The notes beneath the pieces are model-generated. The model made no database searches. It saw nothing but the letters and a program-made list of their open reading frames with translations, and had not been told where the DNA came from. Below are positions 3,100-50,318 of a stretch of 64,000 bases of DNA, one piece after another (positions within the stretch are counted from its first letter, which is position 1; each line of letters starts with the position of its first letter). A program made the translations under genes and the position numbers. Source of the DNA: Pseudomonas sp. R84 (GTDB taxonomy: Bacteria > Pseudomonadota > Gammaproteobacteria > Pseudomonadales > Pseudomonadaceae); NCBI RefSeq assembly GCF_009834515.1, contig NZ_CP019426.1, positions 2,593,501 to 2,657,500 on the forward strand, written 5' to 3'.

Positions 3100-4047
3100 A
3101 TGAAGCTTTCTCGTTTCCTCCGCAGTGCGCTACTCACAGCGCTGTTCACCTCGCCGCTTTCCTATGCAGCCGAGCCATTGGTCCTGCATGTCGGCGATCA
3201 GAACTACTACAACATCCGTGCCTCGGTGGAGGCATCCGGTGTGTTGAAAGACACGCCTTATACCGTCGACTGGAAACACTTCCAGGCCGCTGCACCCTTG
3301 GCGGAAGCCTTGCAAACCGGTTCGCTCGACCTGGGCTTTTTGGGCGATTCCGGTTTTCTGTTTCTGGCTGCCAAGCAGGCGCCGGTGAAACTGATCGGCG
3401 TATCGCGGCAGAATCCGGACACCATCGCGTTGTTGGTGCCCAAGGATTCTCCGGTGAAAACCATCGCCGACTTGAAGGGCAAAAAGGTCGCTTATTGGCC
3501 CGGAGCCTGGAGTCAGCAGTTGACCTTGCGCGCGCTGGAGCAGGGCGGTCTGCCGGAAAACTACGTCGACTTCGTCAAGCTGATGCCGATCGATGCCGCC
3601 GCAGCCCTGCCACAGGGCAGTATTGATGCCTTCCCGGTGTGGGAACCGTATATTTCCCAGCAGATCGTGTTCTCCGGTGCGCGGCCGATCCTGACCGCAA
3701 AAAACCTGATGCCGGGGCTCAGTGCAATCGCGGCGTCGACACCGTCCATCGACAGCAAACGTGCAGCGATTGCGGATTTTCTCGGTCGTTTGAAACTGGC
3801 GCGGGCCTGGGTCGACAGCCATACGGACGAATACGCCGATCTGTGGGCGAAGAAAGCCAATCTCGATCAGCAGGTGTCGCGGCATTGGTTGCGTCAGGCG
3901 CACATGACGGTCGGGCCGGTGGATCAGCAGGCTGCGACGGACCTGCAAAGCACTGCCGACTTCCTGTTCAAAGTGAAAGCGCTGCCAGCTCCGTTGGCCA
4001 CCGCTGGCATTATCGACACGTCTTTTCAACAGGCATTGGCTCACTGA
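3100..4047 (+). CDS. ABC transporter substrate-binding protein, aliphatic sulfonate type
   Basis: A 315-residue periplasmic protein. The start at 3100 (MKLSRFLRSALLTALF) gives a clean Sec signal with cleavage after SYA, and AGGA sits 6 nt upstream; an in-frame Met at 3067 would bury the signal. It carries the VPKDSPVKTIADLKGKKVAY block typical of SsuA-like proteins and an SIDAFPVWEPYIS cleft segment. It is divergent from the other sulfonate-type binding protein at 1826-2806 and is clearly a different paralogue. No permease or ATPase follows it, so it either feeds the 921-1763 permease or a transporter elsewhere. Confidence 0.88.
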   Translation: MKLSRFLRSALLTALFTSPLSYAAEPLVLHVGDQNYYNIRASVEASGVLKDTPYTVDWKHFQAAAPLAEALQTGSLDLGFLGDSGFLFLAAKQAPVKLIGVSRQNPDTIALLVPKDSPVKTIADLKGKKVAYWPGAWSQQLTLRALEQGGLPENYVDFVKLMPIDAAAALPQGSIDAFPVWEPYISQQIVFSGARPILTAKNLMPGLSAIAASTPSIDSKRAAIADFLGRLKLARAWVDSHTDEYADLWAKKANLDQQVSRHWLRQAHMTVGPVDQQAATDLQSTADFLFKVKALPAPLATAGIIDTSFQQALAH

Positions 4048-36509: not shown

Positions 36510-38216
36510 ATGTCCTCACCCGCCCTCGTGGCGAGGTTGTGCGTAGCGTTGCTGTGCCTGTCTCCACTTCAGATTGCCGTCGCCGCTCCGACTCCCGGTG
36601 ACACCGACCTTATCCGTGACCGGCAGAACCGCTTGCTCGAAGAGCAGCAGCGGCGCCTCGAAGAACTCAAGGATCTGCCCGGCAAGGACGCCAGGCCTGC
36701 GCAACCGGCAGCCCCCAACGATACCCGCTGTTTCCCGATCAAAGACATCGAACTCAAAGGTGCCGACAGCCTTTCCGAGCGCGACAAGACTCGCCTGCTC
36801 AAACCCTATATCGGTGAATGCCTCGGTGTGCCGCAGCTCAACGAACTGCTCAAAGTCATCACCGATCACTACATCGAGAAAGGTCTGGTCACCAGCCGCG
36901 CTTACTTGCCACAGCAGGATCTGTCCAGCGGGCACCTGCAAGTGCTGGTGGTCGAAGGCAAGCTCGAAGGCATGAAAGGCGCGGAAAACAGCCGGCTCTC
37001 GGAGCGGGAACTGGCCATGGCCTTTCCCGGCAAAACCGGTGAACTGGTCAACCTGCGCGAGATCGAGCAAATGGTCGATCAGCTCAACCGTCTGCCATCG
37101 AATCAGGCAAAAATGGAGCTGGCGCCCGGCCAGAACGTCGGTGGCAGCAAAGTGTTGGTCACCAACACCCCGCAGAAGCCATGGCGAGTCGGGCTGTCGC
37201 GCAACAACGACGGTCAGCGCAGCACCGGTGAGCAGCAATGGGGCACGACTTTTGATTGGGATAGCCCGCTTGGCCTGGCGGATCAGTTGAGCCTGCGCGG
37301 CGGTCACGATGCGATGACTGACCATCAACACACCTCCAATAACGCCATGCTCAATTACAGCTTGCCATGGGGTTGGTGGACATTTGGCTACACGTACAGC
37401 CAGAGCGAGTACCGCTCGCAAATCGCCGCCAATGGCTACAACTTCAAACAGACCGGCGACAGCGAAAACCATCAGTTGCGCGCCGAGCGGGTGATCCATC
37501 GCGACGCCGTCAGCAAAACCTCGCTCAGCGCTGGCCTGTCGTACCTGCGCACCAACAACTTCATCGAAGACAGCAAACTCAAACTGAGCAGCAACCGCAT
37601 CAGCGAAGCACAATTTGGCTTCAACCACGGTCGCCGTGTCGGCAGTGCCTTCGTCAACTTTGACGCGGGCATGCAGGAAGGCATCGGCGCCTTCGACGCA
37701 CAGGGTAGCCATGACCCCGGCCCCGGCGAGCCGAATGCGCGCTACCGCAAATACACCGCGACCCTGAGCTATCTGCAGCCCTTCAAAGTGTGGGGCGAGT
37801 CGTTCAGTTTCAGCAGTTTGATGACCGGTCAACGCAGTGAAGACGTGTTGTTCAGCTCACAGCGCACCAGTCTCGGCGGATCGTCGTCGATCCGTGGCTA
37901 CAAGGATCAATCGCTGTCCGGCGACAGCGGCGGCTACTGGCGCAACGACCTGCGCTGGAGCCGTCCGGTGACTGCCGAGTGGCTGCAACCGGTGTTCGCC
38001 GAGTACGGCACCAGCCTCGGTTACGACCAGGGCGTGATCCAGAACAATCAGTACAACGGCAATCAGCATGGGCGCATGTCGAGCAACTCGCTGGAACTGT
38101 TCACCCGTGGCCAGCACGTCGCCGCCAGCGTGACGTTTGCCCATTCCCTGGAACGACCGGACGCGCTGACCGAGCGTGAAGCACCGATCTATTTCCGCCT
38201 CGATTTTTTTATCTAA
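36510..38216 (+). CDS. cdiB: TpsB / CdiB-type outer-membrane transporter (ShlB/FhaC family)
   Basis: A 568-residue Omp85-superfamily protein that exports the partner TpsA. Signal peptide at 1-25 (LCVALLCLSPLQIAVAAP), a helix-like linker rich in Arg/Glu, two POTRA domains (CFPIKDIELKGADSLSERDK; YIEKGLVTSRAYLPQQDL), and a C-terminal beta-barrel containing the conserved loop motif SSSIRGYKD near residue 450 and ending in a Phe-rich strand (YFRLDFFI). It is 24 nt upstream of the giant TpsA gene, the standard two-partner order. The symbol is by analogy, since the partner looks CdiA-like. Confidence 0.92.
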   Translation: MSSPALVARLCVALLCLSPLQIAVAAPTPGDTDLIRDRQNRLLEEQQRRLEELKDLPGKDARPAQPAAPNDTRCFPIKDIELKGADSLSERDKTRLLKPYIGECLGVPQLNELLKVITDHYIEKGLVTSRAYLPQQDLSSGHLQVLVVEGKLEGMKGAENSRLSERELAMAFPGKTGELVNLREIEQMVDQLNRLPSNQAKMELAPGQNVGGSKVLVTNTPQKPWRVGLSRNNDGQRSTGEQQWGTTFDWDSPLGLADQLSLRGGHDAMTDHQHTSNNAMLNYSLPWGWWTFGYTYSQSEYRSQIAANGYNFKQTGDSENHQLRAERVIHRDAVSKTSLSAGLSYLRTNNFIEDSKLKLSSNRISEAQFGFNHGRRVGSAFVNFDAGMQEGIGAFDAQGSHDPGPGEPNARYRKYTATLSYLQPFKVWGESFSFSSLMTGQRSEDVLFSSQRTSLGGSSSIRGYKDQSLSGDSGGYWRNDLRWSRPVTAEWLQPVFAEYGTSLGYDQGVIQNNQYNGNQHGRMSSNSLELFTRGQHVAASVTFAHSLERPDALTEREAPIYFRLDFFI

Positions 38217-38240: not shown

Positions 38241-41200
38241 ATGGATGTTCGTCAGTTCGCCTTCCTTGCAGACCAACCTTCTGCGGCCGTGAAAACACGT
38301 GAGTCTTTTTTGGGCATGCCCAAACGCGGGTTGGCGTTCCTGTTGGCGAACGTGATGTTCTGGCAACCGATGTGGGCGCAGGCTGACGGCATTGTCGTAG
38401 CCAACCCCAACACCTCGCTGGATCGCGCCGGCAATGGCGTGCCGATCATCAACATCGCAACGCCCAACGCCAGCGGCCTGTCGCATAACCAGTTCCACGA
38501 CTATAACGTCGGTGCGCAGGGGCTGATCCTCAACAACGGCTCCACGCAGAATAACGTCACCCAATTGGGCGGGCACATCGTCGACAACCCGAACCTGAAG
38601 AACAGCGGTTCGGCGCAAGCAATTCTCAATGAAGTCATCAGCGGAAACCCGAGCCAGTTGCGCGGGTACACGGAAGTGGCGGGGCAGTCGGCGCGTGTGA
38701 TTGTCGCCAACCCGTATGGCATCACCTGCAACGGTTGCGGCTTCATCAACTCGCCTCGAGTGACGCTGACCACTGGCAAACCGGTGCTCGACAACGGCCG
38801 GCTGGATCGCTTTCAGGTTGATCAGGGCTCGGTGGCCATCGAGGGCGCCGGGCTTAACGCCAGCAACGTCGACCGTTTCGAAATCATCACCCGCAGCGCG
38901 AAAATCAACGCACAGATTCAGGCACAGAACCTGGCCATCGTCGCAGGTCGCAACGACGTCAATGCGCAAACCCTCAACGCCACCGCACGCGTTGAGGACG
39001 GCAGCAGCAAACCGCAGCTGGCCATCGACTCCTCGGCACTCGGCGGCATGTACGCCGGGGCGATCAAACTGGTCGGCACCGAAGCCGGGGTCGGGGTGAA
39101 ACTCGACGGCAAACTGATCGCCAGCGGTGGCGACATCCAGCTTGATGCCAATGGGCAACTGAGTCTGGTCGATACCTCGGCCACCGGCGCGGTCAACGTC
39201 AAAGCCGCCAGCCTCGATGCGCGCGGTCCGGTCTATGCGGGGACCGCACTGAACGTGCAAACCCAAGGTGATCTGAATAACCGGCAAAGCCTTGCGGCCC
39301 GCGACAACATCACACTCAGTGCTGGCGGCCGCTTGACCAACAACGGTGTGATTGAAGCCGGCATCAATGCTGATGGCAGTCGCAATGCTACGGGGGATTT
39401 GAGCCTGACCGCGCAGAACCTCGATAACACCGGCAAGAGCCTGGTGGCGAGCCGCTATTTGGCGGTCAACGCTGCGACCCTGAACAACCGCAGCGGTTCG
39501 CTCAGTGCACAAGCCATCGCCATGGGCGGCGGGACTGTAGACAATCGCAGCGGCCAGATTCTTGGCGATCTGGGCCTCAACATTGATCTGAGCGGGGCGC
39601 TGGACAACCGTGACGGCATGCTCGGGTCCGGACGGTCAGTGAGCTTCAAAGCGGCCGGTCTAGATAACCGCGATGGCGGCGTGGTGGTCAGCGATGGCGG
39701 CCTTACGGTGCGTGTCAGCGGATTGCTCGACAACCGCAACACAGGCGAGATCTCGGCCAAGGGCGCAACGTCTGTGAGCGGGCGCACACTGAACAACAGC
39801 GGCGGCATCCTCAGTGGCCTCAACGGTCTGGTGATTACTCTTGATGATGCACTGACCAACGCCACGGGTGTCATCAGCAGTGAAGGCACGCTGACCCTCA
39901 ATGCCGGGCGTATCGATAACAGCACCGGCAATCTGAGCAGTGCCGGCATGCTCACGATCACCAGCGCGGGAGCGTTGCTCAACCGGGCCGGTTCGATCAG
40001 CACCGACAGCGCATTGGCCATCAACAGCGCAAGTCTGGACAACAGTCAAAAAGGCCTGATCATCGCTAAACAGAACAGCCGGATTGATACCGGCCTGTTC
40101 GACAACAGCAACGGTCAACTGCTCGGGCAACAAGGCTTGACGCTACGCATGGCGCAAGCATTGAACAACGTCAAAGGGGTAATTTCCGCCGCCGCCGTGG
40201 ACAGCCACAGCGCCAGCCTCGATAACCATGAAGGTCTGATCAGCAGTCGCGGTGTGTTGCTGTTGGCTACCGACAAAACGCTGGATAACCAGCTGGGCAC
40301 AGTGATTGCCGACGGTCAGCTCACGCTCACGGTCGGTGTTCTCGACAACCGGGTCGGCAACATCGCCGGCAAATCGGACGTCAGCGTGCAGGCACCGAAC
40401 GTCTATAACCAGAAAGGCAAGTTGATCGCCACCGGCGTGCTCAAACTGAACGCCGCTCAACTGGATAACCGCCAGAGCGGTCTGTTGGGTTCGACCAAAG
40501 CCATGACCCTGACTGTGGGTGAACTGGATAACCGCGGCGGTGAAATCAGCACCAACAGCGATCTGCTGCTCACCGGTAAAAAACTCGACAGCAGTGACGG
40601 CGGCAAGGTCTTCACCGGCAAAGCCTTGACGCTGACTGTCGATGACGTGCTCAACCGCAATAAAGGCCTGATCGATGCGGGCACGTTGTTGACGCTGAGA
40701 TCGCGCACCCTGGCCAACAACGGCGGTGAATTGCGCAGTCAGCAAACCATGCTCCTGACCGCCATCGAAGCCCTTGATAACACCCAGGGCAAGGTCAGCA
40801 GTGAAGCGACATTGACGGTCGACACCGCGCAGATGACCAACGCTCAGGGCAGTCTTTCCAGTGCCGCCGATTTGAAGCTGGTCAGCCGTGACGGCGTTGA
40901 TAACCAGGGCGGCAAGGTTGTTACCGACGGTGCACTGGTCATTGAAAGTGGCAGCCTCGACAATCGCCAGCACGGCACGCTCAGCGGTAAAGGTGCAGTC
41001 ACGGTTACTACCGGCGCCTTCGATAACAGCAACGGTCTGCTCAGCAGTGCCGACACCCTGAACCTCGTCGCCGCTCAGGTCACCAATGCCGGTGACGGCA
41101 GTATCGGCAGTCAAGGTGCTTTGACGGCTTCGGTTACAGGACTCGATCAACAGGGCGGCAAGCTGTTCAGCAACACGCGCCTGAGTCTGGATTTGAATCA

Positions 41201-44200
41201 CGGTCAGCTGAACAATGGTGGTTTGATCAGCGCCCCTGGCACTCTGCTGCTCAAACAACTCAACGGCATCAACAACCAGGGCGGTACGATTTCCAGCGCT
41301 GAAGCCTTCACGCTGACCGCGCAAAGTCTGGATAACGGCAACGGCAATCTTTTGAGCAATCAGGGGCTGATCCTGCGCATTGCCGCAGCGCTGGATAACG
41401 TCAAAGGCATGATCGGCGCCGCATCGATCGATGCCCGCGCCGCCAGCCTGAACAACAGCGGCGGTAACCTGATCAGCCGTGGCGGCCTGGAACTCACGGT
41501 CGATGGCCTGCTGCGTAACGATGCCAAAGGCTTGATTAGCGCCGCGCAGGCGCTGCACATCGACAGTGCCGAACTGAACAACCGCGACAGTGGCTTGATC
41601 AACAGCAAAGGCAACCTGACGCTGAGGGCGACCGGTCTCGATTCCAGCAATGATGGCGAAGTCTCCAGCAATGGCGACATAGACCTGACGCTGACCTCGC
41701 TGACGCAGAACGGCGGGCGACTGCTGGGTGACAGATCGATCACACTGGATCTGGCCAACGGCGACCTCGACAACCAGAACGGTCAGCTCACCGCCAAAGG
41801 TCCGCTGACCCTCCAGCGTCTGCGCGACCTGCGCAACCAGAATGGCGAACTCTCGAGCAATCTCGGTTTCGATGTGATCGCCAGAGCGGTGAACAACAGC
41901 GCCGGCAAAATCATCAGCGGTGAAAAACTGCTCGTGCGCGGCTCGAACCTGATCAACCAGAAAGGCCTGATGTCCGGCTGGCAAGGGCTCATCGTCAACG
42001 GTAACAGCCTGGACAACCGCGACAGCGGCACGCTGTCCAGCAAGTACGCCGATGTCAGCGTAGATTTGACGGGCGCGCTGCTCAACAGTGGCGCGGGTGC
42101 TGTGGTCGCTCAGGGCAATCTGAGTATCAACGCTGACAATGTCGATAACAGCAACAAAGGTAATCTCAGCAGTGGGGCGGGGCAGACCCTGACGTTGGCC
42201 GGTGCGCTTGATAACAATCAGGGCGGCCTGATTGCCAGTGGCGCGGCGCTGGATATCGTCAGCACGGCATTCAGCAATATCGGCGGTGTGATCAATGCAC
42301 AGCAGGTCTTCAATGCCACGGCATCGAGCCTCGATAATCGTGGCGGAAAGATCGCCAGCAACAATGCTATCAACCTCAACCTGAGCGGTGACCTGAACAA
42401 CAACGCCGGTAAACTCGCTGCTGCCGGTCCGCTGCTGATCAAGGGCGTAACCGATCTGCACAACCAGAACGGCCAACTCGCCAGCCAGAAAACCCTGGAC
42501 CTGCGCACGGGTTCGCTGGACAACAGCAACAAGGGCACCGTCGCCGCCAATGACCAGTTGCTGATCACCGCCACTGGCGCCGTCAGCAACAATGCCGACG
42601 GCCTGATCTACAGCCAGAAAGCCGATGTGCAACTGAAAGCGGCAAGCTTGCTCAACGCTAAAGGCTCGATCCAGAGCGACAGCGCGCTGACGCTGGAGAT
42701 CAGCGGCGATTTCGACAACCAGAGCGGCAAAGTCATCGCCCAGAATGGCGATGTGCTGATCAAAGCCGCCAACATCGATAACCGTGGCGGCACACTCGCC
42801 AGCATCAAAGGTGCACTGGAAGCACGCACGGTTGGTGTTCTGCGCAATGGTTTCGACCTGAACAACAACCGTCAGGGCGGCATCATTCAGGCACAGGGCC
42901 TGACGCTGTCGGCACTGGCCGGCCTGAACAACAACGGCGGGCGGATCTCGGCGCAAGCGGCAGACAGCAGCATCACCACGGCGGCGCTGGACAACGGCGC
43001 TGGGGTGCTTTACGCGAAAGGGCTGCTGGGTGTTACCGCCGCAAGCCTCGATAACAGTGGCGGCCAGATCGCCGCCGAGCGTATCGACTTCGGCCTCAGT
43101 GGTGCGCTGCGCAATGGCACGGGCGTCATCGAAAGCAACAGCCAACTGAGCGTCAAAGCCGCCAGCGTCGACAACCAGAACGGTCGCCTGCGCTCCCTGG
43201 GCACCTCCGGCAAGACCGAATTTCAGCTCGGCGGCTTGCTCGACAACCGTAATGGCGTACTGGAAACCGCCAACACTGACATGACCCTCGCGGTCGGTAG
43301 CTTCCTCAATGCCGGGGGGCAACTCAACCACGTCGGGCGCGGCAAGTTCGATATCTCTACGGCCAATGTGCTGGGGGCCGGCGGCAGCATCGTGACCGGC
43401 GGCCTGCTGGAGCTCAATGCAGATACCTGGAACAACACCAGCACGATTCAGGCCGGTCGCCTGAACGTTAACGTGCGCGAGTTCAGCCAGAGCACCAGCG
43501 GCAAGCTGCTGGCTTCGGAGTCTCTACAGGCCCGTGGCGGCAATTGGACCAACCACGGTTTGATCGCCAGTGACGGCATTATCGACATGCAGCTGTCGGG
43601 CAGTTACGGCGGCAGCGGCCGCTTGACCAGCCAGCGAGGGACCGAACTGTCTGTCGCGCAGATGAACATCGGTGCAGGCGGCAGTTTTGCCGCCGGTGCG
43701 ACGTCGACCATTCGTGTCGGCGGGCAACTGATCAACTCGGGCCGCATCACGTCCAGTGAAGACCTGACCGTCAACGCTGGCAGCGTTGCCAACTACGGCA
43801 GTCTGGGGGCGGCGCAGAACCTGACCATCAACACGCCTTCATTGCTCAACGATCGCGGACTGATTTTCAGCGGCAATGACATGACGCTCGGCGTCAGCAC
43901 ATTGACCAACCAGAACGGTGATTTCTACAGCCTGGGCAATGTAGTCATCGGCGGATATGGCGGTGCGGCGCGGGCTGCCGGGGTCTACAACATTTCCGGC
44001 TCGATGGAGAGCGTGGGCGGGTTCACGCTCAATGCCGATGTGTTCGAGAACCGGACTGAAGGCTCGGCGGCTTCGTCTGAGCGCAAGCTGATATCGGGGT
44101 ATATCGCGGCCAGTTGTGGCGACTGCGTCGGCAGCACTTTCAGCAACTTCCTCACGGCTCGTGAGATTTATGAAAGTGTCGACACTGACGCCAGTGCCTC

Positions 44201-47200
44201 TGCCGTGCTCAACGTCGGCAAGGATTTTGTGTTTCAGGGTGGTACGTTTCTCAACAGTAAAAGCACGGTGGCGGCCGGTGGCAACATCGATATCAACGCG
44301 ACGAGTCTGAAGAATATCGGCGCAAAAAGCGGGACTATCGAAGTGACCCGCGAATACGCCTTTGAAATGGGCGCTGGCAGCACAGAAAATTTCATGTCCG
44401 ACTTTGTTGTGCCGTACAACCAGCACAACAACCCCGACTTTCCGTATGTGTATTACTTGGCCCCTGACGGAGTCGTCCGTAAAGCCATCGCTGAATCCGG
44501 CAGTAAAAGGGAAGGCGGGCGAGACGGAGAGACGTTTCGAGTCGTAAGACTCAAAGACAGTGAAACGGGCGAAATCGTCAGTGAGCGCAAATACGGTCGG
44601 GCACTGTCCGGGCTGAAGTATGGCTTTGAAACCTCGATGCCATCGCTGTACGACCCCAACAATCTGGTTGCCTTACCGAGTCAACTGGCGCCCTACCAGC
44701 AAGGCGATGCCGTTGAGGTAGCCACTGACAGCACCGGCTCCACCGGGACAGTCACCAGTCGCAACGCGGTTATCCAGGCGGGCGGAAAAGTCTCGATCAC
44801 GGCGACCCGCGAAGTTGAAAACAGTGTTATTCACGAAGACTACAGCTCCAGCGGCGGCACTAATAAAGTGGCCAACACCAACGTCGGCAGCAGCGGCACC
44901 ACCGTTGTGCGCATCAATAGCCAACTGCCGCCAGACCTCGCGCAGCAGCAAGTCAATCCGCTGAGCTTGCCAGGCTTCTCCCTGCCCACCGGCGAAAACG
45001 GGTTGTTCCGTTTGAGCGGGCAGGGCAGCAGCACGGCATCGTCCGGCAATGGATCGGCGCCTACCTGGACGGTGGGCGGTGAAGCGCTCAGCACTCAGGA
45101 CCATATGGCCGTTGCCACCGGTGGCGGCCCGCGCAACCTGTTTATCGACGCGCCGGCCCAAGTCTCCGACAGCACCCGCGCAGTCGATACATTCCATCGC
45201 ACGCCCAGCGTCGGCAATGACGCCAAAGACTCGATCGACACCCGCTCGGTGACCCGCGTTACCGGCCTGCCGGACACCAAGGCGCCGTCCAATACGCACA
45301 AATACCTGATCGAAACCAACCCGGTACTCACCGACCTCAAGTCGTTCATGAGCTCCGACTACCTGCTGGAAAAACTCGGTTATGACCCCGACCAGAGCGC
45401 CAAGCGCCTCGGTGACGGTCTCTACGAACAGCGCCTGATCCAGCAAGCCGTCACTGCGCGCACCGGCCAGGCTTTCATCGATGGCCAGACCTCCAACGAG
45501 GGCATGTTCAAGTACCTGATGAACAACGCCATCGCCAGCAAGGATGCGCTCAACCTGTCGGTCGGTGTCGGCCTCACGGCCCAGCAAGTGGCAGCACTGA
45601 CCCACGACATCGTCTGGCTCGAAGAGCACGAAGTGAATGGCGAAAAAGTGCTGGTGCCGGTGGTGTATCTGGCGCAGGCCAATGGCCGTTTGGGCCCGAC
45701 CGGGGCGTTGATTGCCGGTAACGATGTGACGCTGATTGCCGGTGAGAACCTGGATAACGTCGGGACGTTGAAGGCGACGAATAATCTGTCGGCCACCGCA
45801 AGTAAAGATCTTGTTAACAGTGGATTGATCGAAGCGAACGGACGAGTGGATTTGTTAGCCAGTGAGAATCTGGTGAACAAGGCCGGCGGGATCATCACCG
45901 GGGGTGATGTCAGCATGGTGGCTGTTCGTGGCGACGTGATCAATGAGCGAACGATTATCGGAATGGATCGCAGCGGTCTTGATATAACCCAACATCAGGA
46001 CTACGGCGACTCTGCCGCGCGCGTGGAGGCTGCAAACGATCTGACAATCAAAGCCGGGCGTGACGTAACTATTGCGGGTGGAGTACTGCAGAGTGGGCGT
46101 GACATGCTTTTGGATGCCGGGCGGGATGTCAATATTCTGTCGATGGAAGAGCGCTCCTACAAAGGTAACTCTGTAAATTTCAAAGAATCGGTTGATCAGT
46201 TGAGCTCTTACGTCGATGCGGGTCGAAATCTTTCAGTGGAAAGTGGCCGAAACATCGCTGTAATCGCAAGTGAAATTACGGCCAAGCAGAATATCTCGAT
46301 GAGTGCGGGCCAAGATATTCTCTTTGCTTCTGCGGCCGACGAAGAGCACTCGGCCTCGAAAAATCGCAAAATTGTCCGCAAGGAAGATCACGTTGACCAG
46401 GTTCAGACGACTGTCGAAGCGGGTGGGAAAATATCCCTTAGCGCTCGGGATGACATGACGCTGATAGCCAGTCGTGTCACCGCCGGCGAAGAGGCTTATT
46501 TGATCGCGGGAGATCAGCTCAATTTACTGGCGGCACAGGACAGTGACTATTCTCTATATGACAAAAAGAAAAAGAGTAGCTGGGGTAAAAAGGAAACCAA
46601 GCGGGATGAAGTCACCAAGATAACTAATATTGGTACGCAAATTTCCAGTGGCGGCAATTTGACTCTTGTCAGCGCTGGTGATCAGCGCTATCAAGCAGCT
46701 GAACTCACCAGTGCAAAAGATCTGTCCCTTTTCAGTGGCGGCTCTATCACTTTTGAAGGCGTCAAAGACCTCAAGCAGGAAAGTCACAATAAAAGCAGCA
46801 GCAGCCTTGCTTGGAATTCTGCCAAAGGCAAAGGTACAACCGATGAGACTTTACGCCAGAGTGAATTGACTGCCGAAGGTAACCTGGTCATTCATGCGGT
46901 TAATGGATTGACTGTCGATATCAAGCAGTTAGACCAGCACACTATCAGTCAGACAATCGATGTAATGGTCAACGCAGACCCAAAGCTCGCGTGGCTTAAG
47001 GATCTGGAAGCTCGCGGGGACGTGGACTGGCGTCTGGTCAAGGAAACGCACGACTCATACCAGTACAGTAGCTCCGGCATGGGGCCCGGTTTGATGCTGG
47101 CGGTGCTCATCATTATCACTGTTCTTACTGCAGGTGCTGCCAGTGGTGCTGTAGGGGCAGCCGCAGGTGCAACTGCCGGATCAGGGACCACCATGGCGGC

Positions 47201-48767
47201 TGCGACTACCGCGCAGGCCGTTGCGGCAGGCGCTCAGTTCACTGCAGCTGGATGGGGTAACGTGATGGCCTCCAGTGTTCTGACATCAATGGCCGGAACT
47301 GCTTCAATCAGTTTCATCAATAACCAGGGAGATATAGGTGCTGTCTTCAAAGATCTCCTGGCTGAAGACAATTTGAAGAACTATCTGACCGGGGCTGCAA
47401 CAGCCGGCTTCACGTCTTCCTTCTTGAATGATTTTTTCGGCGTTCAAGGCATTGAAGTCGTTCAGCCTGAACATGGATTCAACCTTAGTACGCTCGACGG
47501 GATGCTGGGCTTTACGGCTTATTCGTTGAGTCAAGGCGCTACTCAGGCAACAATCAGTACTGCTCTGAACGGTGGGGATTTGGGGCGCAATCTAGGCAAC
47601 GCTTTAGCATCGCAGGCCGGTAACTCGGCCATGGCGATCGGATTCAAACTGGTAGGCGACTACGTCTCTTACCCTGAAGGCAGTCCGCAGAAAATTCTCG
47701 CGCACGCCATTATGGGTGGGCTACTTTCGAAAGCGACAGGCAGTGACTTCGCCACTGGTGCGGCTTCGGCAGGGCTCAATCAGGCAATGATAAACGTGCT
47801 GGCCAGTATGGCTAATGGCGACAAAAACATTGAAGGCGTGCTTTCTCAACTCACCGGTATTCTGGCTTCATCCGCGGTGGGAGGGGACGTCGACACTGGT
47901 GCTCAGATCGCCATGAACGCCACCACGTTCAACCGCCAGTTACACCCGGAAGAGAAGGCTCTGGCACGGCGACTGGCTGCTGAAAGCAATGGCAAGTACA
48001 CGGTGGAGCAGATTGAAGCTCAGTTGCGATTGTCTTTTGTCAAAGGGACGAAGATCGGCCCAGGCAGCGATATCGTAGCGACTCAAGAAGGTATGTATGA
48101 TCCCGATGGTAATTGGTTGCCGCTGGGTAATAGTGGACTCTTTGTACAGAACTTCACTGGTAGCGATCATGATGTTGTGGCGTACATACAAGGGAAAACC
48201 GACCTCTATTCATGGACACTGGAAGCGGAGATGGGGTTTTCATCAATCGTCAAAGATGGATGGTCTCAGTTCAGTTCTGATGGTTCTGGCGGTCGTGACC
48301 GGCTCACTGGGTACCCCATGGATAGCAATGGCGGGTATCGTGTACCCATCACCATCGACGGCAAGAACTACACACCACGGTTTTATCCCTGTGCAACTGC
48401 TGAATGCATCGCAACGGGAGGTAATATTGATCTGAAGGATCCACAGACACTCAAGTGGATCAGAGCTGCAAACATTCAAATGGTCAAGGATGTTGGGTAT
48501 GCGATGAGTTGGGGAGCAGTCATGGGGCCGGCGAAAGCATCGGTAATTTTGTCGAACTCATCAATGGCTGCATCGATGCTCGCGGGATATTTGGACAGTG
48601 ATCTGCCAAAAACAACCGCCAGTAATATCTTGAGCACAGGGTTTGAGAAATTTCTGGTAGCTAAGGGCATTCCGGCCGTGGATGCGGGAAGGATCTCCAA
48701 TTACTTAGGAACGCAAGAGGTGTGGGACAATCTTGTAAAGGAAGCGGCTGATGCCTATTCCCATTAA
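38241..48767 (+). CDS. cdiA: TpsA / CdiA-like giant filamentous haemagglutinin with C-terminal toxin region
   Basis: A 3508-residue exoprotein. Residues 1-48: extended signal (PKRGLAFLLANVMFWQPMWA). Residues about 50-290: TPS secretion domain with NPYG at 157-160 and a CNGCG pair. Residues about 320-1890: many FHA-type repeats of roughly 20 residues (LDNxxG patterns) forming a beta-helix rod. Residues about 2355-2500: conserved CdiA-type block (LEKLGYDPDQSAKRLGDGLY; LTHDIVWLEEHEV). Residues about 2500-2900: second repeat zone. Residues from about 2905: DUF637-like pretoxin with hydrophobic LMLAVLIIITVLTAG. NATTFNRQLHPEE near 3226 marks the likely start of the variable C-terminal domain. The last part is more AT-rich than the rod. 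Secreted by the upstream TpsB; the next gene is the immunity candidate. Confidence 0.93.
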   Translation: MDVRQFAFLADQPSAAVKTRESFLGMPKRGLAFLLANVMFWQPMWAQADGIVVANPNTSLDRAGNGVPIINIATPNASGLSHNQFHDYNVGAQGLILNNGSTQNNVTQLGGHIVDNPNLKNSGSAQAILNEVISGNPSQLRGYTEVAGQSARVIVANPYGITCNGCGFINSPRVTLTTGKPVLDNGRLDRFQVDQGSVAIEGAGLNASNVDRFEIITRSAKINAQIQAQNLAIVAGRNDVNAQTLNATARVEDGSSKPQLAIDSSALGGMYAGAIKLVGTEAGVGVKLDGKLIASGGDIQLDANGQLSLVDTSATGAVNVKAASLDARGPVYAGTALNVQTQGDLNNRQSLAARDNITLSAGGRLTNNGVIEAGINADGSRNATGDLSLTAQNLDNTGKSLVASRYLAVNAATLNNRSGSLSAQAIAMGGGTVDNRSGQILGDLGLNIDLSGALDNRDGMLGSGRSVSFKAAGLDNRDGGVVVSDGGLTVRVSGLLDNRNTGEISAKGATSVSGRTLNNSGGILSGLNGLVITLDDALTNATGVISSEGTLTLNAGRIDNSTGNLSSAGMLTITSAGALLNRAGSISTDSALAINSASLDNSQKGLIIAKQNSRIDTGLFDNSNGQLLGQQGLTLRMAQALNNVKGVISAAAVDSHSASLDNHEGLISSRGVLLLATDKTLDNQLGTVIADGQLTLTVGVLDNRVGNIAGKSDVSVQAPNVYNQKGKLIATGVLKLNAAQLDNRQSGLLGSTKAMTLTVGELDNRGGEISTNSDLLLTGKKLDSSDGGKVFTGKALTLTVDDVLNRNKGLIDAGTLLTLRSRTLANNGGELRSQQTMLLTAIEALDNTQGKVSSEATLTVDTAQMTNAQGSLSSAADLKLVSRDGVDNQGGKVVTDGALVIESGSLDNRQHGTLSGKGAVTVTTGAFDNSNGLLSSADTLNLVAAQVTNAGDGSIGSQGALTASVTGLDQQGGKLFSNTRLSLDLNHGQLNNGGLISAPGTLLLKQLNGINNQGGTISSAEAFTLTAQSLDNGNGNLLSNQGLILRIAAALDNVKGMIGAASIDARAASLNNSGGNLISRGGLELTVDGLLRNDAKGLISAAQALHIDSAELNNRDSGLINSKGNLTLRATGLDSSNDGEVSSNGDIDLTLTSLTQNGGRLLGDRSITLDLANGDLDNQNGQLTAKGPLTLQRLRDLRNQNGELSSNLGFDVIARAVNNSAGKIISGEKLLVRGSNLINQKGLMSGWQGLIVNGNSLDNRDSGTLSSKYADVSVDLTGALLNSGAGAVVAQGNLSINADNVDNSNKGNLSSGAGQTLTLAGALDNNQGGLIASGAALDIVSTAFSNIGGVINAQQVFNATASSLDNRGGKIASNNAINLNLSGDLNNNAGKLAAAGPLLIKGVTDLHNQNGQLASQKTLDLRTGSLDNSNKGTVAANDQLLITATGAVSNNADGLIYSQKADVQLKAASLLNAKGSIQSDSALTLEISGDFDNQSGKVIAQNGDVLIKAANIDNRGGTLASIKGALEARTVGVLRNGFDLNNNRQGGIIQAQGLTLSALAGLNNNGGRISAQAADSSITTAALDNGAGVLYAKGLLGVTAASLDNSGGQIAAERIDFGLSGALRNGTGVIESNSQLSVKAASVDNQNGRLRSLGTSGKTEFQLGGLLDNRNGVLETANTDMTLAVGSFLNAGGQLNHVGRGKFDISTANVLGAGGSIVTGGLLELNADTWNNTSTIQAGRLNVNVREFSQSTSGKLLASESLQARGGNWTNHGLIASDGIIDMQLSGSYGGSGRLTSQRGTELSVAQMNIGAGGSFAAGATSTIRVGGQLINSGRITSSEDLTVNAGSVANYGSLGAAQNLTINTPSLLNDRGLIFSGNDMTLGVSTLTNQNGDFYSLGNVVIGGYGGAARAAGVYNISGSMESVGGFTLNADVFENRTEGSAASSERKLISGYIAASCGDCVGSTFSNFLTAREIYESVDTDASASAVLNVGKDFVFQGGTFLNSKSTVAAGGNIDINATSLKNIGAKSGTIEVTREYAFEMGAGSTENFMSDFVVPYNQHNNPDFPYVYYLAPDGVVRKAIAESGSKREGGRDGETFRVVRLKDSETGEIVSERKYGRALSGLKYGFETSMPSLYDPNNLVALPSQLAPYQQGDAVEVATDSTGSTGTVTSRNAVIQAGGKVSITATREVENSVIHEDYSSSGGTNKVANTNVGSSGTTVVRINSQLPPDLAQQQVNPLSLPGFSLPTGENGLFRLSGQGSSTASSGNGSAPTWTVGGEALSTQDHMAVATGGGPRNLFIDAPAQVSDSTRAVDTFHRTPSVGNDAKDSIDTRSVTRVTGLPDTKAPSNTHKYLIETNPVLTDLKSFMSSDYLLEKLGYDPDQSAKRLGDGLYEQRLIQQAVTARTGQAFIDGQTSNEGMFKYLMNNAIASKDALNLSVGVGLTAQQVAALTHDIVWLEEHEVNGEKVLVPVVYLAQANGRLGPTGALIAGNDVTLIAGENLDNVGTLKATNNLSATASKDLVNSGLIEANGRVDLLASENLVNKAGGIITGGDVSMVAVRGDVINERTIIGMDRSGLDITQHQDYGDSAARVEAANDLTIKAGRDVTIAGGVLQSGRDMLLDAGRDVNILSMEERSYKGNSVNFKESVDQLSSYVDAGRNLSVESGRNIAVIASEITAKQNISMSAGQDILFASAADEEHSASKNRKIVRKEDHVDQVQTTVEAGGKISLSARDDMTLIASRVTAGEEAYLIAGDQLNLLAAQDSDYSLYDKKKKSSWGKKETKRDEVTKITNIGTQISSGGNLTLVSAGDQRYQAAELTSAKDLSLFSGGSITFEGVKDLKQESHNKSSSSLAWNSAKGKGTTDETLRQSELTAEGNLVIHAVNGLTVDIKQLDQHTISQTIDVMVNADPKLAWLKDLEARGDVDWRLVKETHDSYQYSSSGMGPGLMLAVLIIITVLTAGAASGAVGAAAGATAGSGTTMAAATTAQAVAAGAQFTAAGWGNVMASSVLTSMAGTASISFINNQGDIGAVFKDLLAEDNLKNYLTGAATAGFTSSFLNDFFGVQGIEVVQPEHGFNLSTLDGMLGFTAYSLSQGATQATISTALNGGDLGRNLGNALASQAGNSAMAIGFKLVGDYVSYPEGSPQKILAHAIMGGLLSKATGSDFATGAASAGLNQAMINVLASMANGDKNIEGVLSQLTGILASSAVGGDVDTGAQIAMNATTFNRQLHPEEKALARRLAAESNGKYTVEQIEAQLRLSFVKGTKIGPGSDIVATQEGMYDPDGNWLPLGNSGLFVQNFTGSDHDVVAYIQGKTDLYSWTLEAEMGFSSIVKDGWSQFSSDGSGGRDRLTGYPMDSNGGYRVPITIDGKNYTPRFYPCATAECIATGGNIDLKDPQTLKWIRAANIQMVKDVGYAMSWGAVMGPAKASVILSNSSMAASMLAGYLDSDLPKTTASNILSTGFEKFLVAKGIPAVDAGRISNYLGTQEVWDNLVKEAADAYSH
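39200..43900 (+). repeat. FHA-type degenerate repeat array within the cdiA-like gene
   Basis: Tens of tandem, diverged units of about 60 nt encode LDN(x)nG(x)nS(x)nG/L(x)nL(x)nL-type strands of the beta-helix. Units share GATAACCG/GACAACAG-like cores. The repeats are imperfect, so slippage or recombination could change rod length, but no long identical copies are seen. Confidence 0.75.
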
Positions 48768-49059
48768 ATCAATAATTGCAGCGCTTTTTAAACACCACCA
48801 CATGGTGGGTGTTGCATTGCTTGTCGCCGCAGTCATAAATGGTTATCTGCAATTCAATGGTAGCTGGGGGCGCTTTTTCACTGTGCTGGCAACCCAGTTA
48901 TGGTTTGCACAAGGTGTCTATTGCTACTTTCGTGGCGCGGGTATTTCAATCGCCCCGGGTGGGCTGGGCAGAGATGCAGATCCCACCTGGCGAGCCGGTT
49001 TGGCGTCTTTTGCTTTCTTTCTATACGCAATATTCTTCTTTTTGGATTACCAGTATTGA
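48751..49059 (+). CDS. Small membrane protein, candidate CdiI immunity protein
   Basis: A 102-residue protein with about three predicted membrane helices (VGVALLVAAVINGYL; FFTVLATQLWFAQGVYCYF; LASFAFFLYAIFFFLDY) and a short basic N-terminus. Its ATG lies inside the last codons of the cdiA-like gene (17-nt overlap, different frame), so the two are translationally coupled, as cdiA/cdiI pairs are. Membrane-embedded immunity proteins are known for CdiA toxins that act on the inner membrane. I do not recognise its family; the role is inferred from position, size and topology. Local base composition is AT-rich like the end of the toxin. Confidence 0.65.
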   Translation: MPIPIKSIIAALFKHHHMVGVALLVAAVINGYLQFNGSWGRFFTVLATQLWFAQGVYCYFRGAGISIAPGGLGRDADPTWRAGLASFAFFLYAIFFFLDYQY

Positions 49060-49119
49060 ATCGTAATAATCGGCCAACTTCCTGCTCTTTCGGGAATGAA
49101 GAGGGAAAAATGACTGGGG

Positions 49120-49159
49120 ACAGACCACGTTTAGAAAACACTCCGAAAACGTGGTCTGT
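49120..49159. repeat. 13-bp inverted repeat (ACAGACCACGTTT) after the immunity candidate
   Basis: ACAGACCACGTTT (49120-49132) and AAACGTGGTCTGT (49147-49159) form a perfect palindromic pair with a 14-nt loop, preceded by ACTGGGG. The form GGGGACAGA... resembles termini of REP-associated elements in Pseudomonas, so this may be a mobile-element scar at the end of the CDI locus. No transposase is present. Confidence 0.5.
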
Positions 49160-49216: not shown

Positions 49217-49248
49217 GAAAACGCCCCGAACAATGTCGGGGCGTTTTC
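49217..49248. terminator. Bidirectional rho-independent terminator
   Basis: GAAAACGCCCCGA (49217-49229) pairs with TCGGGGCGTTTTC (49236-49248). It lies between the convergent immunity candidate and luciferase-like monooxygenase genes and can end both transcripts. Confidence 0.9.
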
Positions 49249-49274: not shown

Positions 49275-50318
49275 TTACCGAAACGCTGGCACCACATGCT
49301 TGATAAACAGCTCCAGTGATTTCTTTTTCTCTTCATGCGGCAAGCTGTTGTCACACCAGAAACTGAACTCATCCACCCCCAGTTCCTGGTAGTACTTGAT
49401 GCGCGGAATGATCTCTTCCGGCGTACCAATCATCGCCGTCTTGTGCAGACTCTCCAGCTCAAACTCCGGCCGCCCGGCAAACTTCTCTTCCGGGCTTGGC
49501 GCGAGGAAGCCGTTGACCGGTGTCTGCTTGTTGCCGAACCACGCATCAAAAGTGCGATAGAAACGTGAGATGGCTTTCGCGCCGACTTTCCAGCCGTCCG
49601 GGTTATCAGCGGTGTGCACGTGGGTGTGACGCAGCACCATCAGTTGCGGGCGCGGTACGTCTGGATTGTTGTCCAGCGCGGTCTGGAACTTGTTCTTCAG
49701 GTCGAGGACTTCCTCGTCGCCCTTCATCAGCGGCGTGACCATTACATTGCAGCCGTTGGCCACGGCGAAGTTGTGCGAATCCGGGTCGCGGGCGGCGATC
49801 CACATTGGCGGGTTCGGCTGTTGGATCGGTTTTGGCACGCTGGTCGAGGTGGGGAATTTCCAGATGTCGCCGTCGTGGGCGTAGTCGCCTTGCCACAGGG
49901 CGCGGACCACCGGGACCATTTCGCGCAATGCCTGGCCACCGCTGGAGGCAGGCATGCCGCCGGCCATGCGATCGAATTCAACCTGATAGGCGCCACGGGC
50001 CAGGCCGACTTCCATGCGGCCGTTGCTGATCACGTCGAGCAAGGCGCATTCACCGGCAACGCGCAGCGGGTGCCAGAACGGCGCGATGATGGTGCCGGCG
50101 CCGAGGTGGATGGTGGTGGTTTTGGCGGCGAGGTAGGCGAGCAATGGCATCGGGCTTGGCGAGATGGTGTATTCCATCGCGTGGTGTTCGCCAATCCACA
50201 CGGTGCTGAAACCGCCGGCCTCGGCCATCAGGGTCAGTTCGGTGAGGTCTTCGAACAGTTGGCGGTGGCTGACGCTTTCGTCCCAGCGTTCCATGTGGAT
50301 GAACAGGGAAAATTTCAT
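49275..50318 (-). CDS. Luciferase-like (LLM class) FMNH2-dependent monooxygenase
   Basis: A 347-residue flavin-dependent oxidoreductase of the bacterial luciferase family, which uses reduced FMN supplied by a partner reductase. Seen: FSLFIHMERWDESVSHRQLF at the N-terminus, GGFSTVWIGEHHAMEY with the conserved His-His, LGAGTIIAPFWHPLRVA, and GRMEVGLARGAYQVEF. The flavin reductase gene lies upstream on the same strand, so together they form a two-component monooxygenase. Related systems open N-heterocycles (RutA/RutF) or act on trigonelline or alkanals; the substrate here is unknown, but the nearby NCS1 permease suggests an N-heterocycle. Confidence 0.88.
   Translation of the reverse strand: MKFSLFIHMERWDESVSHRQLFEDLTELTLMAEAGGFSTVWIGEHHAMEYTISPSPMPLLAYLAAKTTTIHLGAGTIIAPFWHPLRVAGECALLDVISNGRMEVGLARGAYQVEFDRMAGGMPASSGGQALREMVPVVRALWQGDYAHDGDIWKFPTSTSVPKPIQQPNPPMWIAARDPDSHNFAVANGCNVMVTPLMKGDEEVLDLKNKFQTALDNNPDVPRPQLMVLRHTHVHTADNPDGWKVGAKAISRFYRTFDAWFGNKQTPVNGFLAPSPEEKFAGRPEFELESLHKTAMIGTPEEIIPRIKYYQELGVDEFSFWCDNSLPHEEKKKSLELFIKHVVPAFR

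Follow-up and report, generated by a model that had tools for sequence, protein, structure and literature searches.

A probable membrane-depolarising toxin and its candidate immunity protein at the end of a cdiBAI locus in Pseudomonas sp. R84

The closest described counterparts of the pair reported here are the type 10 ionophores of contact-dependent growth inhibition (CDI) in Escherichia coli (EC93, groups 1-6). In the parts of Halvorsen et al. (2024, PMC11630599) used here, these toxins have five-helix C-terminal domains with a glycine zipper as their only shared sequence element, and their CdiI proteins are predicted two-helix hairpins of 72-100 residues; the classification covers E. coli toxins. 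For Pseudomonas CdiA proteins, the portions of Mercy et al. (2016, PMC4725963) on which we draw give NEALV as the class V pre-toxin motif, do not require the PT-VENN domain in the Pseudomonas classes and state that only P. aeruginosa has orphan modules. We analysed a stretch of 64,000 nucleotides of Pseudomonas sp. R84 (NZ_CP019426.1, positions 2,593,501 to 2,657,500, hereafter the window), whose genome is a single 6.6-Mb contig. Our subject is the end of its CdiA-like effector and the small gene that follows, which probably encode a membrane-depolarising CDI toxin and its CdiI. The relevant features of the window are:

36510..38216, + strand: CdiB-like outer-membrane transporter, 568 residues (ShlB PF03865, E 5e-97; POTRA_2; POTRA_3)
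38241..48767, + strand: CdiA-like effector, 3508 residues (TPS domain, E 2e-55; Fil_haemagg repeats; DUF637 at residues 3010-3177)
47778..47792, + strand: NQAMI (residue 3180), in the place of NEALV in some relatives (equivalence by eye)
47919..48461, + strand: shared pre-toxin and putative entry region (NRQLH...KYTVEQIE...RDRLTG...FYPCATAEC), also present in CdiA proteins that bear other toxins
48462..48764, + strand: toxin-specific module, the last ~100 CdiA residues, delimited by comparison of pairing and swaps (low-confidence five-helix model)
48751..49059, + strand: cdiI candidate, 102 residues, three predicted membrane helices, ATG start

This is almost certainly a cdiBAI locus with a real toxin/immunity pair. 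An effector secreted by the two-partner (TPS) route and built of filamentous haemagglutinin (FHA) repeats, with 42 fil_hemag_20aa stretches (NCBIfam), adjoins a ShlB/FhaC-type transporter, and its C-terminus is polymorphic and varies in step with the small gene behind it, both of which are hallmarks of CDI. The ATG of the small gene, as the initial annotation of this DNA had read it, lies 17 nt inside cdiA (48751, against a stop at 48765-48767). Guanine-plus-cytosine (GC) content falls from 58.2% in the CdiA body to 50.5% in the 282-residue tail, 49.2% over its final 99 codons and 47.6% for the cdiI candidate, a drop at module and cdiI that fits an exchanged cassette. A record of Pseudomonas sp. 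M20 holds a CdiA of equal length that is identical across the queried last 85 residues.

The initial annotation had recognised no toxin family in the ~280-residue end, and our searches agree. Neither the 282-residue tail nor the 102-residue protein gave a significant match in Pfam (colicin and colicin-immunity families included), NCBIfam or PHROGs, and Pfam run on 15 members of each family alignment returned, besides the upstream DUF637 in 3 members, nothing but weak matches, led by PF17586 (E 0.0029) and PT-VENN (0.02). A sequence search of the PDB with one sequence and two profiles returned nothing significant (best profile match E 0.1), the plasmid records searched contained no match, and a text search of the literature for NRQLH found nothing related. 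Pfam did not find the PT-VENN pre-toxin domain of the E. coli type in CdiA; DUF637 was found instead. Judged by sequence, the toxin module and the CdiI candidate are a new family in a known kind of system.

The toxin itself does not extend over the whole ~280 residues, as had initially been assumed. NATTFNRQLHPEE starts at CdiA residue 3226 and NRQLH at residue 3231 (nt 47931), the latter ~50 residues after NQAMI, and the first ~170-195 residues after NATTF (about 3227-3420) are, in the comparison of relatives, a shared pre-toxin region to which we assign a putative entry role. The Cys pair noted in the initial annotation is present at residues 3381-3389 (FYPCATAEC), inside this shared region, where it is fully or almost fully conserved. 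In Pfam, the same region is followed by a Deam_C cytidine-deaminase domain in one relative (G348, E 2.1e-51) and by an Stv domain in another (G061, E 2.9e-11), while the C-termini that follow it in G010 and G079 matched no named domain. Matches to the CdiA tail occur in 15 of 398 Pseudomonas genomes; in G061, G010, G079, G348, G327 and G044 the match either covers an inner piece or breaks off at tail residue 192-217, and what follows is another C-terminus with another downstream open reading frame (ORF). Because residues ~3227-3420 are common to CdiA proteins with other toxins, the pair-specific part would be the last ~85-108 residues, and we reject the 280 residues as one toxin, since the first ~195 recur with other ends. 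AlphaFold modelled tail residues 11-100 at a block-mean predicted local distance difference test score (pLDDT) of 75-94.

The entry region was also seen in other settings. At one locus of G348 (L088, C2:2649000-2668000) it is present in three copies with different C-termini, two of them in short ORFs that start inside the entry region. In Cupriavidus (L032), Herbaspirillum (L033) and the protein P0033, the NRQLH region precedes another hydrophobic C-terminal module; L032 and L033 share NRQLH...KYTVEQIE and carry an ORF of 94-100 residues after that module. This is possibly a second, unrelated membrane toxin type, and the Cupriavidus and Herbaspirillum tails were rejected as the same toxin at an hhalign probability of 0.1 (0-100 scale; 3 sequences on that side).

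The pairing of module and small gene was surveyed by reading ~1.5 kb upstream of the small-protein match in the 29 of 398 Pseudomonas genomes, the source genome included, that have one. A complete module ends just before the small gene in six of them (the source genome, G032, G390, G036, G097 and G315; in G315 the module lies in a 144-residue ORF and a frame change interrupts the small gene), a remnant stands directly upstream in three more (G152, G165 and G279), and G136 has tail pieces beside the small gene. The match in G307 (E 9.8e-4, stop inside) was treated as chance. The 102-residue protein has 8 database relatives of 102-106 residues and 71-81% identity, 7 of which form one alignment (A2, P0012 left out) and all 8 the alignment used for modelling (A4). 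Together with the 28 other genomes and the recurrence of both genes side by side, these relatives amount to more than chance.

The initial annotation had named a swapped end with a swapped downstream gene in related strains as support for its reading, and such exchanges were found, both at the hotspot loci described below and between G097 and a contig of Pseudomonas sp. CROZ-RG-20F-R04-15 (L031), which carries the tail with a complete module and, directly behind it, a related small gene. Along the alignment, tail identity of L031 and G097 runs 100, 100, 97, 90, 77, 49, 13, 43 and 26% by bin, the first four bins being alignment columns 1-120, and the two immunity proteins are 40% identical. From these sequences we read the difference as a natural swap of toxin end and immunity gene, which makes ~the last 100 residues and the small gene the pair-specific unit.

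A profile of the module matched 8 of 396 Pseudomonas genomes (the source genome, G032, G036, G097, G152, G164, G315 and G390), of which the G164 match was judged chance (E 8.9e-5, stop inside), and among 274 genomes drawn across the class it matched the source genome only. The tail with its module is also present in Halomonas urumqiensis (P0029) and Vreelandella aquamarina (P0030), and a match in a Clostridia metagenome-assembled genome (L034) was set aside as chance in a long unrelated frame.

Two groups of small genes standing without a recognised toxin were also observed. In three of the 29 genomes, G052, G191 and G358 (L004, L005 and L026), toxin-less immunity-like genes stand just behind an ORF that resembles, as we take it, the immunity proteins of PoNe-type toxins, as if immunity genes were stockpiled there. 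More remote homologues of the 102-residue protein, at 34-44% identity, were found in G019, G297, G395, G156 and G348 (L097, L098, L100, L101 and L102); they carry an extra tail of the ...DWTMP(T)REE type, have no recognisable CDI toxin within the 9 kb read, lie in some cases near integrase-like ORFs (by reading), and are perhaps solitary immunity genes.

Based on the delimited module, we compared 17 module sequences, namely the 12 rows of alignment A6 (which omits P0018, P0023 and P0025 as gapped or truncated) with P0014, P0018, G032 (L036), G315 and the end of P0019 added. Counted from nt 48468, only G40, F59, G67 and A73 are invariant, and no charged residue, His, Cys or Ser is; the best-kept polar positions are Y41 (16/17), S32, S56 and W86 (15/17 each), and E60 and N78 (14/17 each). 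AlphaFold2, given 15 sequences (alignment A5: the window, L031 and 13 of 19 collected proteins, omitting P0019 with a part in another frame, P0027 and P0028 with other toxins, and P0031, P0032 and P0033), gave a model with five helices in the stretch from tail residue 175 to 281, starting at about CdiA residue 3401 and lying in the last 108 residues. For the 102-residue protein the model gave a short helix at 5-14 and helices at 16-33, 39-60 and 78-101, and its hydropathy peak (Kyte-Doolittle) is 1.72. Judged by eye, the N-terminus and the loop at 61-80 contain the positive residues, suggesting a cytoplasmic N-terminus and a C-terminus on the outside.

A membrane-only immunity candidate, a helical partner with no invariant residues of catalytic type and a separate entry region together point to action at the cytoplasmic membrane. 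The membrane-targeting toxin of the initial annotation is therefore kept as the likeliest reading, one that we infer from this combination. CdiB would export CdiA and, on contact, the CdiA C-terminal region would enter the periplasm of the neighbour, where the shared entry region may dock on an inner-membrane protein of the target. The last ~100 residues, as a small all-helical module, would then insert into the cytoplasmic membrane and collapse the potential across it, while the 102-residue CdiI would sit in the inner membrane of the producer through its three helices and block the cognate module there. We hold this account, from delivery and entry to membrane insertion, depolarisation and immunity, to be the probable one.

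As in the E. coli type 10 ionophores, to the extent that PMC11630599 was drawn on, the genes stand in the order CdiBAI, a small hydrophobic CdiI gene lies directly downstream, and the C-terminal region consists of an entry part and an all-helical part of five helices (from a weak model here); by analogy, the module probably works like these ionophores. The two groups also differ, since the entry region is mixed alpha/beta in our model and alpha-helical in the E. coli toxins, and the CdiI candidate has 102 residues and three modelled helices as against the two-helix hairpins of 72-100 residues. With Pseudomonas class V/DUF637 CdiA proteins the locus shares the order CdiB, CdiA and small ORF, a DUF637 before the variable end, and the NEALV-like NQAMI; the portions of PMC4725963 used, compared here by description, name no membrane-acting toxin in that class. 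Pore-forming colicins have a helical pore domain with a hydrophobic hairpin, and their E1-type immunity proteins are three-helix proteins of ~113 residues in the inner membrane. The present pair would resemble them in its modelled helical toxin part and predicted three-helix membrane immunity protein and differs in being delivered by CdiA rather than released.

Several observations weigh against the membrane-depolarising account. Both AlphaFold models are weak, so that the five helices are a secondary-structure hint only: the tail model has a mean pLDDT of 60.6, with values <50 over tail residues 185-233, 245-251 and 276-282 and mostly below 60 in the five-helix C-terminal part, and the model of the 102-residue protein averages 57.5. 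Foldseek with these two models returned no PDB match at E<=0.001. The hydrophobic stretch that the initial annotation placed at the end of the protein does exist (SWGAVMG..., residues 3423-3442), but it ends 66 residues before the C-terminus and the hydropathy of the tail is moderate, with a best 19-residue Kyte-Doolittle mean of 1.15. The glycine zipper GxxxGxxxG of the E. coli ionophores is absent from the tail, which has GAVMGPAKA only. The hydrophobic start of the module aligns with a hydrophobic stretch of the deaminase-bearing relative, so hydrophobicity alone is no proof of a membrane toxin. Against EC93, the one ionophore compared by sequence, the tail scored a BLASTP E of 17 and an hhalign probability of 0.8 (0-100 scale), and EC93 CdiI showed no sequence relation to the 102-residue protein; with single-sequence yardsticks, both comparisons are a weak test. 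With no sequence relation to EC93 found, no zipper and an apparently three-helix CdiI, we do not class the module as a type 10 member. Finally, 15 of the 29 genomes with a small-protein match have no toxin module in the ~1.5 kb read, and immunity may thus not be the only job of the small-protein family.

Three other explanations have to be weighed with these points. The toxin could act on a specific inner-membrane protein (a transporter, a division protein or a cell-wall enzyme) without forming a pore, with the immunity protein covering either that target or the surface at which toxin and target meet. Such a binder fits equally well with an immunity candidate in the membrane that exposes little soluble surface and with the lack of invariant catalytic-type residues, and also with the small size and only moderate hydrophobicity of the module; nothing points to a specific target, however, and among known functions the small hydrophobic CdiI proteins nearest to ours are, in the parts of PMC11630599 used, those of the ionophores, and we consider this explanation unlikely. 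An enzymatic toxin of new fold (a nuclease, or a lipid or peptidoglycan enzyme) with a membrane-tethered immunity protein would agree with the Deam_C enzyme that the same entry region carries in G348 and with the lack of an assigned fold for the module. It is hard to reconcile with a module in which even S32, S56 and E60 vary and with an immunity candidate that has almost no soluble surface, and we regard it as quite improbable.

The end of CdiA might also be no toxin at all but the structural end of a filamentous haemagglutinin adhesin beside a bystander membrane gene. FHA proteins without toxins exist, and some members of the small-gene family have no toxin in their vicinity; against this, the CdiA end varies and is exchanged jointly with the gene behind it, even where relatives share one chromosomal locus, and GC falls at the module, which leaves this explanation very little probability.

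Downstream of the cdiI candidate, the window contains:

49116..49159, no strand assigned: palindrome GGGGACAGACCACGTTT...AAACGTGGTCTGT, starting 57 nt past the cdiI stop
49217..49248, + strand: 13-bp inverted repeat 3' of cdiI, a possible terminator
49275..50318, strand opposite to cdiA, convergent: 347-residue gene (ORF list)

Further ORFs of ~75-104 residues are listed between the cdiI candidate and the 347-residue gene, which we take to encode an oxidoreductase. This gene (MKFSLF[IV]HMERWDES...) also stands beside cdiA genes in G036, G097, G033, G055, G098 and G162, where the cdiA genes have other ends in all cases except the first cdiA of G036 and of G097; one example is a NucA/NucB DNase in G033. 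Between cdiA and this neighbour, the relatives carry small ORFs, some of which repeat CdiA ends or immunity-like genes (by reading), interspersed with palindromes GGGGACAGACCACGTTT...AAACGTGGTCTGTCCCC (L083-L086, L091-L094). Such orphan-module-like arrays in Pseudomonas relatives known to genus only contrast with the limit to P. aeruginosa stated in the parts of PMC4725963 used. A 230-residue Y1-transposase-like gene with half-sites on both sides is present in G097 (two copies), G033 and G162, whereas the copy in G036 is shorter and less clean on its right side; the one G097 copy scanned is Y1_Tnp (E 2.2e-14).

The window itself has one palindrome, no array and no Y1_Tnp transposase gene. The exact GGGGACAGACCACG occurs in the source genome only at 49116..49159, and the 13-mer ACAGACCACGTTT at <=1 mismatch has 12 copies there, as many as its reversed control (12), so this genome has no wider family of degenerate copies. 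Across 199 Pseudomonas genomes, GGGGACAGACCACGTTT has 74 copies in 19 (reversed control 0), and of 72 listed positions, 46 have a DUF637 match no more than 25 kb away. Counted as clusters, 8 of 26 are near DUF637, which with its surroundings makes up <=0.95% of the sequence (binomial 9e-11, clusters taken as independent), and 5 of 23 remain once the source genome, G036 and G097, the source of the idea, are left out. The cluster in G122 is upstream, not downstream, of the DUF637 gene. No copy lies near a DUF637 gene in 11 of these 19 genomes, which include drafts on small contigs, so the palindrome element also occurs outside CDI loci; a cluster of 5 stands in G183, a genome with no DUF637, and in G041 a cluster stands beside a large CdiA-like ORF without a DUF637 match. 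A limited literature search on RAYT/REPIN elements with CDI toxin or orphan modules yielded no report of a link between palindromes and arrays.

A fuller picture would be that of a new structural class of membrane-depolarising CDI toxin (~100 residues, no zipper, three-helix CdiI) that moves as a cassette with a Y1/RAYT palindrome at its 3' edge, transposase repeats, and not homologous recombination alone, reshuffling the orphan arrays at the hotspot. We put this forward as a doubtful but testable idea of how cassettes could be collected and exchanged. If the membrane-depolarising reading is true, the range of membrane-acting CDI toxins is wider than the glycine-zipper group and includes a sequence-unrelated family in Pseudomonas and Halomonas/Vreelandella, attached to an entry region that in other proteins bears enzyme toxins, and the locus would offer a compact pair for studying toxin recognition by a membrane immunity protein.

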